A stretch of DNA of 64,000 nt, taken from assembly GCF_013177675.1 (NCBI RefSeq), contig NZ_CP042652.1, positions 682,001-746,000 on the forward strand. The letters are read 5' to 3'. Below are positions 19,755-23,668 of the stretch, one piece after another. Numbering within the stretch: the stretch's first letter is position 1; each line of letters opens with the position of its first letter. This DNA comes from Arcobacter acticola (GTDB lineage Bacteria; Campylobacterota; Campylobacteria; Campylobacterales; Arcobacteraceae). The notes beneath the pieces are model-generated. The model worked only from the letters and a program-made list of their open reading frames with translations. It searched no databases and was not told the origin of the DNA. Position numbers and translations under genes: made by a program.

Positions 19755-21827
19755 ATGGCTAAAAAACAAAATAATAACAACTTTAACAAAAATAATAGCA
19801 ATAACAACAGTAATGGGAATAACAATAACAATAATGGAAACAATAATTTTTTCAATAATAATCCATTAATGATTTTTGTAATTTTTTCAATTGTTACTAT
19901 TTTTGCATTTAAAGCAATTTTTCCAGAAGATCAAATGGGAAGTGCAACAAATTCAAATATGCAAGCTTATGGGCAAACTCAAAACAAAACAATTGCATAT
20001 TCAGATTTAAAAAAATTAATTAGTTCTGGAAAAATAGAATATGTAGGAATTGGAAATACTCAAATTAGAGCTGTTTCTAAAATGGGATCAGGTCAAGCAA
20101 CAACATATACTGCAAGACGTGTAATTCCTGATGAAACATTAATAAGTGCTTTAGAAGAAAATGGTATCAATTATGGTGGAATTAATGAAGAAAATATCTT
20201 AGCTGATATTTTATTTGGTTGGGTTTTACCTATTTTTATTTTCTTTGCTATTTGGATGTTTATTGCAAAAAGAATGCAAAAATCTATGGGTGGAGGTTCA
20301 GGTGGAATCTTAGGAATTGGTTCATCTAAAAAGATGATAAATTCTGAGAAACCAAATGTAACTTTTGATGATATGGCTGGAAATAAAGAAGCTAAAGAAG
20401 AAGTTCAAGAAATAGTTGACTTCCTAAAATCACCTGATAGATATGTAAGACTTGGAGCTCAAATTCCAAAAGGTGTTCTTTTAGTAGGACCTCCAGGTAC
20501 AGGTAAAACTTTACTTGCAAAAGCAGTTGCTGGTGAAGCAAATGTTGAGTTCTTATCTGTTTCAGGTTCTGCATTTATTGAAATGTTTGTTGGAGTTGGA
20601 GCTTCTAGGGTTAGAGATTTATTTGAACAAGCTAAAAAAGTTGCACCTGCTATTATCTTTATAGATGAAATTGATGCAATTGGTAAAAGTAGAGCAAGTG
20701 GTGGTCCAATGGGTGGAAATGATGAGAGAGAACAAACATTAAATCAGTTACTTGCAGAAATGGATGGATTTTCAACTGAACATGCACCTGTTATTGTACT
20801 AGCTGCAACTAATAGACCTGAAGTTCTAGATCCAGCACTTTTAAGACCAGGAAGATTTGATAGACAAGTTTTAGTTGATAAACCAGATTTCGAAGGTAGA
20901 GTTGAAATCTTAAATGTTCATATTAAAGAAGTAAAATTAGGCAAAAATGTTGATTTAAGAGAAATCGCAAAAATGACAGCAGGACTTGCTGGAGCTGATT
21001 TAGCAAATATCATTAATGAAGCGGCACTTCTTGCAGGGCGAGCTTCAAAAGATCAAGTAGATCCAAGTGATTTTAAAGAAGCTGTTGAAAGACAAATTGC
21101 TGGTTTAGAGAAAAAATCTAAAAGAATTTCTCCAAAAGAAAGAAAAATTGTAGCTTACCATGAATCTGGACATGCTTTAATTGCTGAAATCACAAAAGGT
21201 GCTAATAAAGTAAATAAAGTATCAATAGTTCCAAGAGGATTAGCAGCTTTAGGATATACATTAAATACTCCAGAAGAAAACAAATACTTAATGCAAAAAC
21301 ATGAGTTAATAGCTGAAGTTGATGTATTACTAGGTGGTCGTGCTGCTGAAGAAGTATTTATTGGTGAAATTAGTACAGGTGCTGGAAATGACCTTGAAAG
21401 AGCAACTGGAATTATCAAATCTATGGCTACTGTTTATGGTATGAGTGATATTGCTGGACTTATGGTTTTAGAAAAAAGATCTAATCAATTTCTTGGTGGT
21501 CAAACACAAAAAGACTTCTCAGATGCAATGGCTAAAGATTTAGATGATCATACTAAAAAACTTTTAAATGAAAGATATGAAATAGTTCTTCAAGAATTAA
21601 GAGATAATAGTGCTGCTATTGAGCAAATGACTGCTGAACTATTAGATATTGAAGTAATTTCAGGTGAAAGAGTTAGAGAAATTATCAAAGAAAATGGTGG
21701 AACTGTTTTTGAAGATGGTGACTTACATACTGATGCAATAGTGAGTGACGATAAAGTTAAAACAAAAACTGAAGAAACTCAAGAGCCAAAAATAGAAACA
21801 CAAGAAGAAAAAAAAGACAATGAATAA
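19755..21827 (+). CDS. ftsH: ATP-dependent zinc metalloprotease FtsH
   Basis: This 690-aa membrane protease degrades misfolded membrane proteins and regulators. Order: an Asn-rich cytoplasmic start (about residues 5-37), first membrane helix (about 38-54), periplasmic domain, second helix (about 150-168), AAA+ module with GPPGTGKT (245-252), FIDEIDAIG and [17 protein letters not shown], then the protease with HESGH (469-473). The C-terminal tail is acidic and Lys/Glu-rich. The Asn tract is unusual and looks like replication slippage on AAT/AAC codons. It follows prmA by 2 bases; a perfect hairpin overlaps its stop codon. Confidence 0.97.
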
Positions 21828-21851
21828 GAGAAAATAGAAATATTTTCTCTT
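21826..21851 (+). terminator. Perfect hairpin overlapping the ftsH stop codon
   Basis: AAGAGAAAATA, loop GAAA, TATTTTCTCTT forms a perfect 11-bp stem starting within the TAA of ftsH. It is followed by GGAAAAAAAC and not by a T-run, so it is not a classical intrinsic terminator on this strand; it may protect the 3' end or terminate weakly. Confidence 0.5.
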
Positions 21852-21868
21852 GGAAAAAAACAAAACTC

Positions 21869-21897
21869 TTGACAAATCCCCCTAAATTAATTATACT
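21869..21897 (+). promoter_or_regulatory. Consensus sigma-70 promoter of the leuA leader
   Basis: TTGACA (21869-21874), a 17-base spacer and TATACT (21892-21897) make a near-perfect sigma-70 promoter, rare in such AT-rich DNA. Transcription would start near 21904, just upstream of the leader peptide's ribosome site. Confidence 0.75.
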
Positions 21898-21929
21898 TGT
21901 GACAATTCAAAAATAACAAGGAGAGATAT

Positions 21930-22007
21930 ATGAAAATATTTAATATTTCAAATAACCATTTCATCAAAAGTGTTAACTCTCTTCTGCTTCTTTCTTTTTC
22001 TCTCTAA
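21930..22007 (+). CDS. leuL: Leucine leader peptide of leuA
   Basis: A 25-codon frame follows a strong ribosome site (AAGGAGAG, about 6 bases upstream). It encodes MKIFNISNNHFIKSV and then NSLLLLSFSL. Four consecutive Leu codons (CTT CTG CTT CTT, 21981-21992) and a final CTC are striking, because TTA is the usual Leu codon in this window and CTG/CTC are rare. Ile and Val codons also occur. Placed between a consensus promoter and leuA, it has the features of an amino-acid-sensing leader peptide that stalls ribosomes when charged tRNA-Leu is scarce. The symbol is by functional analogy; I cannot confirm homology. Confidence 0.72.
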   Translation: MKIFNISNNHFIKSVNSLLLLSFSL

Positions 22008-22068
22008 TAATAAATTTCTTATTATTACAATTTATAATAAATAATCAAAATTCTGTTTTTCTTTTTTT
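22006..22068 (+). promoter_or_regulatory. Attenuator-like alternative RNA stems before leuA
   Basis: Three arms can pair in two exclusive ways: AATAATAA (22006-22013) with TTATTATT (22019-22026), or TTATTAT with ATAATAA (22034-22040). A T-rich tract (22051-22068) follows. The first arm begins at the leader stop codon, so a ribosome that finishes the peptide would cover it, while one stalled on the Leu codons would not. The stems are pure A-U and weak, so the folding model is tentative. Confidence 0.5.
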
Positions 22069-22114
22069 CATATAAAAAAAGATATAATAATTAACATTTT
22101 AAAAGGTTTACACA

Positions 22115-23668
22115 ATGGATAAAAATAAAATTATAGTATTTGATACAACATTAAGAGATGGTGAGCAAAGCCCTGGCTGTTCAATGAACACTGAAGAAAA
22201 AATAAAAATTGCATTACAATTAGAAAAATTAGGTGTTGATGTAATTGAAGCTGGATTTGCAGCAGCTAGTCCTGGTGATTTTGATGCGGTTAGCCGAATT
22301 GCTGAAATGGTTAAAAACTCAAGCATTTGTTCTTTAAGTAGAGCAATTGATAACGATATTAAACAATCAGGTTTAGCAGTATCAAAAGCACCCAAACACA
22401 GAATCCATACATTTATTGCAACATCGCCAATTCATATGAAATATAAATTAAAAATGTCGCCAGATGAAGTAATTAAAAGAGCAATTCATGCGGTTGAATA
22501 TGCAAGAACATTTGTGGATGATGTTGAGTTTTCATTGGAAGATGCAGGAAGATCTGAAATTCCATTTATGAAAGAAGTTATGGATGCAGTTATAAATGCA
22601 GGTGCAAGAACTATTAACTTACCAGATACTGTAGGATATAGATTACCAAATGAATTAGGTGCAATGGTTAAAGAATTAAGTGCATATGCAGGAGATCGTG
22701 CAATTATTTCTGTTCATAATCATAATGATTTAGGATTAGCAACAGCTAATACTTTAGCTGCTGTTTTAAATGGCGCTAGACAAATTGAAGTTACAATCAA
22801 TGGATTAGGGGAGAGAGCTGGAAATTCAGCTTTAGAAGAGGCTGTTATGGCTATTAAAACTCGAAAAGATGCATTTGGAGATTTATATACAACTATTAAT
22901 ACTCCTGAAATTTATGCAACTTCAAGATTAGTTGCAACTGTAACTGGTGTTGAACCACAACAAAATAAATCAATTGTTGGTAAAAATGCATTCTCTCACG
23001 AAAGTGGAATTCACCAAGATGGTGTTTTAAAACATCAAGAAACATATGAAATCATGAAACCTGAAGATGTAGGTGTATTTAAAGAATCAACTTTAATTTT
23101 AGGAAAACACTCAGGTCGTGCAGCATTTAGAGATAAAATTGTTCATATGGGATTTGATAAAGTTAGTGATGAAGAATTAAATGCTGCTTTTGAAAGATTT
23201 AAAGTTTTAGCTGATAAGAAAAAAGATGTAACTGATGATGATATCAGAATGTTAATAACTGATGAGTCATTAAATCAAGATAAAACTTATGAATTAGTTG
23301 GATTACAAATATCTGATTGTACAGCTGGAGTTCCAACAGCAGCAGTTGCTATTAAATTCAAAGATCAAATTATGAAAGATGCAGCTATTGGTGATGGAAC
23401 GATGGATGCAATTTTTAAAACTATAGATAGATTAACGGGTTATAATGGAGAGTTAAAAGATTATAAAGTAACTTCTGTAACAGAAGGTAAAGATGCCTTA
23501 GCAAAAGTTACTACAAGAGTTTCTTTTGATGAAACAAGTCCAGCATTTGTAGGACATGGATTAAGTATCGATACAATGCTTGCAACTGCAAAAGCATATT
23601 TAGGTGCATTAAACTCATACCTTTCTCAAAAAGAAAGATTATCTAAAAATAGTGAACACCAAATTTAG
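22115..23668 (+). CDS. leuA: 2-isopropylmalate synthase
   Basis: This 517-aa enzyme condenses acetyl-CoA with 2-oxoisovalerate, the committed step of leucine synthesis. The N-terminal HMGL-like barrel shows [16 protein letters not shown] (metal and acid/base residues), [11 protein letters not shown], and the metal-binding [24 protein letters not shown] and LGKHSGR follow, and a C-terminal LeuA dimer/regulatory domain (about 370-505) is present, so leucine feedback inhibition is expected. Length is typical of the longer LeuA class. Upstream leader RNA suggests additional transcription control. No other leu genes lie downstream. Confidence 0.95.

Follow-up and report, generated by a model that had tools for sequence, protein, structure and literature searches.

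The locus studied here raises the question of how a short leucine-rich reading frame ahead of leuA might govern that gene, and which parts of the region selection has preserved. The window is a stretch of 64,000 nucleotides from Arcobacter acticola; all coordinates refer to it, and the features from P1 to leuA lie on its forward strand. The leader ORF leuL (21930-22007; 25 codons and a stop) encodes the peptide MKIFNISNNHFIKSVNSLLLLSFSL and is preceded by the Shine-Dalgarno sequence AAGGAGAG (21918-21925). It is flanked by a presumed ftsH-like gene at 19755-21827 and by a gene at 22115-23668 with the Shine-Dalgarno sequence AAAAGG at 22101-22106. The latter encodes a protein of 517 aa, presumably 2-isopropylmalate synthase; its name, leuA, is assumed from the look of the protein, which has relatives in other genomes.

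The initial annotation described a 25-codon peptide with four consecutive Leu codons ahead of leuA, in a TTA-biased genome where CTG and CTC are rare, and both points held. Codons 18-21 (21981-21992) read CTT CTG CTT CTT, and a further Leu codon, CTC, ends the frame (22002-22004). In a sample of 124,598 codons from the same genome, CTG and CTC made up 0.9% and 0.8% of Leu codons, versus 59% for TTA. CTN codons accounted for 231 of the 251 Leu codons in the leaders that we compared, versus 34% in the genome's own genes. CTN codons are decoded by tRNA-Leu with GAG and UAG anticodons, and one of each was found within seven genome stretches holding long tRNA candidates.

A comparison with leuA upstream regions of relatives showed that the Leu-rich frame is conserved. 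A profile of 19 peptides of the window's kind (type A) gave a strong match (E ≤ 6.2e-8), one per genome, in 77 of 104 family genomes including that of the window (G000, 3.02 Mb), the profiles (A1 and A2) being built from genomes that are themselves among those searched. The other 27 genomes were without a strong match, and the remaining six matches had E-values of 1.8e-4 or worse. The family (f1) was taken as Arcobacteraceae, its nearest named records being Arcobacter and Aliarcobacter. A second match in the window's own genome (L002, 33 bases) was A/T-rich and was judged from its sequence to be due to chance.

For detailed comparison, 51 leaders, that of the window included, were drawn from 53 distinct upstream regions with LeuA at least 80% identical, among the matches listed (30 loci; best 80); L026, on a contig too short, and L071, with no frame, were left out. 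GGAGA of the leuL Shine-Dalgarno sequence was present in all 51 leaders and GGAGAG in 50. The terminal CTC was likewise present in all 51, adjoining the stop codon in 48, with AAA or AAATTT intervening in the other three. Searches of Pfam and NCBIfam with four leader peptides gave no family up to E = 1. A genuine Leu leader peptide before leuA is well supported by its conservation.

Selection on the peptide was uneven along its length. We calculated pN/pS for the 50 leaders in register that have F at residue 11 (the anchor itself matched all 51). Codons 11-17, FIKSVN[ST] (FIKSVNS in the window, 21960-21980), gave a value of 0.11 with a bootstrap interval of 0.06-0.15, which is too narrow because the bootstrap resamples related sequences. 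Codons 6-10 gave 0.42 and the Leu run gave 0.38, so that the residues preceding the leucines are more conserved than the Leu run itself. Protein-level selection on FIKSVN[ST] was about as strong as that on LeuA, for which the control value was 0.12 (codons 11-70, 40 sequences); shifted frames gave 0.57 and 1.71 (10 and 13 sequences without stops). The low value in codons 11-17 suggests that LeuL is translated.

A second class of leader, type B, carries the motif K.LPKIEI[KR]N-x-Leu-Leu. We found it in 16 of 17 leuA upstream regions from families f4, f9, f18, f20 and f22, which were named after the motif had been noticed there, within a set of 60 order-level upstream regions hand-picked with several per family and not at random. 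In family f10 the motif occurred at one of six loci (L196-L201). Three genomes of that family (L196-L198) have yet another kind of leader before leuA, M[IV]AN[SG]KKIYIFIYKLSLLNLLCSSF, which fits neither class. At other order-level loci the frame that our filter gave was unrelated, or no frame rich in Leu was found.

A profile of 19 type-B peptides matched 70 of 397 phylum genomes, with E ≤ 1.8e-9 and one match each, in families f4, f9, f10, f18 and f20. A further seven matches had E-values of 0.0027 or worse. Named records carrying type B include Hydrogenimonas and Nitratiruptor, and a search of plasmids with one type-B peptide gave no match. In all 30 fetched loci leuA lay downstream of the leader. 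The leader stop was 55-85 nt ahead of the matched leuA start in 15 of them; the other 15 were on the opposite strand, and their gene order was taken from coordinates. The distance from leader to leuA was 288 nt in one genome (L200). Of the Leu pair in 41 distinct type-B sequences, the first codon was mostly CTC (32) and the second without exception CTG (26) or CTA (15); the third positions of the LPKIEIKN codons varied freely. CTC (30%) and CTG (31%) are common codons in one type-B genome (G068). The first selection figures for type B are biased low because the search pattern fixes the motif, and a looser later anchor still fixes the N and the Leu pair. An N stood two residues ahead of the Leu run in 43 of 45 type-A windows; the type-B pattern fixes that N.

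The usual account of amino-acid attenuation invokes codon content only. If codon content alone drove this leader, the nascent chain would be idle and the conserved residues would reflect RNA constraint or shared ancestry. Consistent with this, the relatives compared are not independent, and the centroid fold pairs the leuL Shine-Dalgarno sequence with the codons for N16-L18. Furthermore, all 51 leaders share the C at the third position of the terminal Leu codon although CTT is expected to be read by the same tRNA, which suggests some nucleotide-level constraint. However, synonymous changes are plentiful in both FIKSVNS and LPKIEIKN while the amino acids are fixed, and conservation is weaker in the Leu run than just ahead of it. 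We regard an idle chain as rather unlikely. The selection pattern is best read as reflecting a putative role for the nascent chain, and the conserved FIKSVN[ST], together with a second class of conserved peptide before leuA, suggests ribosome stalling assisted by the nascent chain.

The putative promoter P1, TTGACA-17-TATACT (21869-21897), matches 11 of 12 consensus positions and had been proposed from the window's own sequence. It is the only perfect match to the search pattern in the window, yet 28 of 100 shuffles hold one too, so the case for P1 is made by its conservation among leaders. Scores of at least 10/12 were obtained in 50 of the 51 leaders (window included), versus 4 of 51 when each was shuffled once. 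From this conservation, which bears out the earlier proposal, we infer that P1 is active as a promoter.

How the leader would be read out is a separate matter. The initial annotation placed a ribosome-dependent switch just after the leuL stop codon, with the arm 22019-22026 pairing either with 22006-22013 or with 22034-22040. RNAalifold on a MAFFT alignment of the 51 leaders gave no structure, so the hairpins were tested one by one. The first pairing stood: it belongs to a hairpin, H1 (22005-22027; stem 22005-22013/22019-22027), which begins at the stop codon; among the 51 leaders its fold z (median -3.5) was below -1 in 37 and did not get that low in 14. At six positions of its stem both A-T and T-A pairs were seen among relatives (29 folded of 49 distinct segments). 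The second pairing did not hold up. It reaches 7 bp in the window and in one near-identical relative; across the 35 hairpin-bearing leaders the longest such pairing averaged 4.37 bp, versus 4.46 in shuffles. A pairing of the Shine-Dalgarno sequence with the terminal CTCT was also considered, and its flanks agreed in 33 of 51 leaders (GT with A in 20, GA with T in 13); this agreement is clade-bound and was not counted as covariation.

These results bear on whether leuA is controlled by attenuation of the classical kind known from the enteric leu operon, in which an antiterminator competes with an intrinsic terminator. H1 is conserved and lies at the stop codon, and the competing 7-bp pairing is present in this sequence. 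However, that pairing is at chance level in relatives, and a consensus scan of the window requiring three G-C pairs found no terminator-like site in 21600-22300, although such a scan would miss a terminator built entirely of A/T. There is no T run 3' of H1, and the whole leader folds no better than its shuffles (z -0.49). Spacers of type B lack structure: the median z was +0.63, and 2 of 44 fell below -2. In 21800-22200 a search of Rfam gave nothing credible, with no leucine leader among the matches up to E = 5. We consider a terminator-antiterminator switch highly improbable here, and the proposal of one did not survive the comparison.

If transcription is attenuated, Rho would be a likelier agent than an intrinsic terminator hairpin, because Rho is encoded in the genome and the spacers between leader and leuA are rich in C and poor in G (type A, C 358/G 178; type B, C 375/G 116). 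The composition of upstream regions in general was near parity in three sampled genomes, two of them type-B ones with C 568/G 610 and C 706/G 752. For the window itself, the spacer value was reached by 21% of upstream regions from the same genome. Its best rut-like window was reached by 12% of 134 such regions, and a search for rut-like windows of 78 nt gave no significant result for this leader. When two type-B spacers were compared with their respective genomes, one, with a C-G value of 6, exceeded the 95th percentile (5), and the other, with 3, missed the 90th (5).

Between H1 and leuA lies a palindrome, H3, TCTTTTTTT-CATAT-AAAAAAAGA (22060-22082), abutted by TATAAT (22083-22088), 32 nt upstream of leuA. 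The box, as TA[TC]AAT, was present upstream of leuA in all 51 leaders, at a distance from the start of 30-35 nt in 49 and of 46 and 54 nt in the other two, where the start used lies further in. A perfect stem of at least 7 bp abutted the box in 47 of 51 leaders, the box with the longest stem being taken where there were several; by the same measure L050 and L056 have no such stem. Among 72 TATAAT sites upstream of genes in the window's own genome, one had a stem of at least 6 bp, that of leuA itself, and the palindrome pattern occurs once in the 3.02-Mb genome. In family f6 (L182, L184, L189) we noted by eye a GC-rich inverted repeat, such as TACCC-N5-GGGTA, abutting TACAAT or TAAAAT upstream of leuA, a layout that resembles that of the window with different letters.

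The TATAAT box is probably the -10 box of a second leuA promoter, P2; the palindrome may serve as an operator or as a hairpin within the P1 transcript. It could be argued that P2 chiefly drives leuA, with the palindrome as operator for a DNA-binding repressor or activator and the leader as a minor or separate layer. The near-constant pairing of box and palindrome, and the single occurrence of the latter in the genome, would suit such an arrangement. However, in L039, L048 and L064 the two arms have changed together, keeping symmetry with other letters, which is more hairpin-like than expected of a fixed binding site, and both P1 and the LeuL frame show conservation of their own. Control of leuA mainly through P2 seems to us unlikely. 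The palindrome with its TATAAT (22060-22088) and the conserved peptide ahead of the leucines are stronger features than those first described, and both had been missed.

We propose that leuL acts as a ribosome-mediated leucine sensor of leuA, with the nascent chain aiding the stall, premature termination more likely through Rho, and P2 as a bypass; on balance we hold this scheme to be probable. A short RNA would be made from P1 and LeuL translated from it. When charged tRNA-Leu is scarce, the ribosome would stall within the Leu run, and the nascent chain (FIKSVN[ST] here, K.LPKIEI[KR]N elsewhere), lying in the upper part of the exit tunnel, would make the stall long or specific. With the ribosome stalled, transcription would continue into leuA. 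When leucine is plentiful, the ribosome would finish and depart, and transcription would end before leuA, more likely by Rho than at an intrinsic terminator. P2 would provide expression that bypasses the leader. Several results tell against the scheme: the 27 family genomes that gave no strong match, the order-level loci at which a related Leu-rich frame was missing, the common CTC and CTG codons of G068, the unexceptional composition of the window's own leader, and an H1 that falls short in 14 leaders and has no counterpart in type-B spacers. Stalling, its dependence on leucine, the direction of the effect and the part of Rho are each what we infer from sequence comparison. More tentatively, and as a possibility short of probable, the LeuL peptides of Campylobacterota may be leucine-responsive arrest peptides of at least two nascent-chain classes, F[IL]KSVN[ST]-Leu and K.LPKIEI[KR]N-x-Leu-Leu; the stall would then depend on the chain and not on how many Leu codons there are, and Rho, in place of a terminator hairpin, would provide the read-out.

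Among known systems, the leu attenuator of enteric bacteria offers the obvious comparison. E. coli leuL, like the leader here, is a short ORF just before leuA and carries a run of Leu codons. Enteric control relies on an intrinsic terminator together with an antiterminator; at the leuL of the window the run of cognate codons is present, whereas the scan requiring three G-C pairs found no terminator and the comparison of relatives no mutually exclusive antiterminator, and on these results the leader falls outside the class of classical terminator attenuators. TnaC, the leader peptide of the E. coli tna operon, is read out by Rho, a point mentioned by Seliverstov et al. Nascent residues are described as important for arrest in TnaC, as proposed here, and like such arrest peptides LeuL has nascent-chain residues that are conserved at the protein level. 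However, TnaC arrests at high tryptophan, whereas leuA is biosynthetic and the proposed stall should signal low leucine. The actinobacterial LEU element (Seliverstov et al. 2005, PMC1262725) also has a leuA leader peptide with a Leu run, in a distant phylum; its authors state that other parts of an attenuator are missing from it and describe a pseudoknot with a base stem, in which the Leu run is paired to the Shine-Dalgarno sequence of leuA.

Closest to the window's leader is the LeuL described in 2013 in C. jejuni and other Epsilonproteobacteria by Porcelli et al. (PMC3847290), from a survey of 40 genomes, three of them Arcobacter. Its proposed role is the same, and the leader of the window belongs to this kind, being an ORF of 20-35 aa that has a ribosome-binding site, lies upstream of leuA and encodes a peptide with several C-terminal leucines. 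In C. jejuni the leader RNA ends shortly past the leuL stop codon (PMC3847290), and LeuL is translated, its start codon having been mapped by ribosome profiling in 2025 (PMC11955535). The view in the initial annotation that little is known of such attenuation in Campylobacterota is out of date in the light of these two studies. In PMC11955535, tBLASTn matches to leuL are reported to be confined, as a rule, to C. jejuni or related Campylobacter, a narrow range that fits the differences between classes found here. The account of LeuL in the excerpted text of PMC3847290 turns on leucine content and rare codons, and that text does not include a nascent-chain motif, H1 or the palindrome with its TATAAT. 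Within the open-licence literature we recognised no paper on a conserved nascent-chain motif in LeuL, and an exact-motif search found none. What appears to be new here is that the pre-leucine residues FIKSVN[ST] are under stronger protein-level selection than the Leu run, and that there is a second class, K.LPKIEI[KR]N-x-Leu-Leu. Motifs so short and conserved make the nascent-chain idea directly testable by toeprinting, and a biosynthetic leader whose putatively tunnel-facing residues are about as conserved as its enzyme would place attenuators and arrest peptides on one scale.
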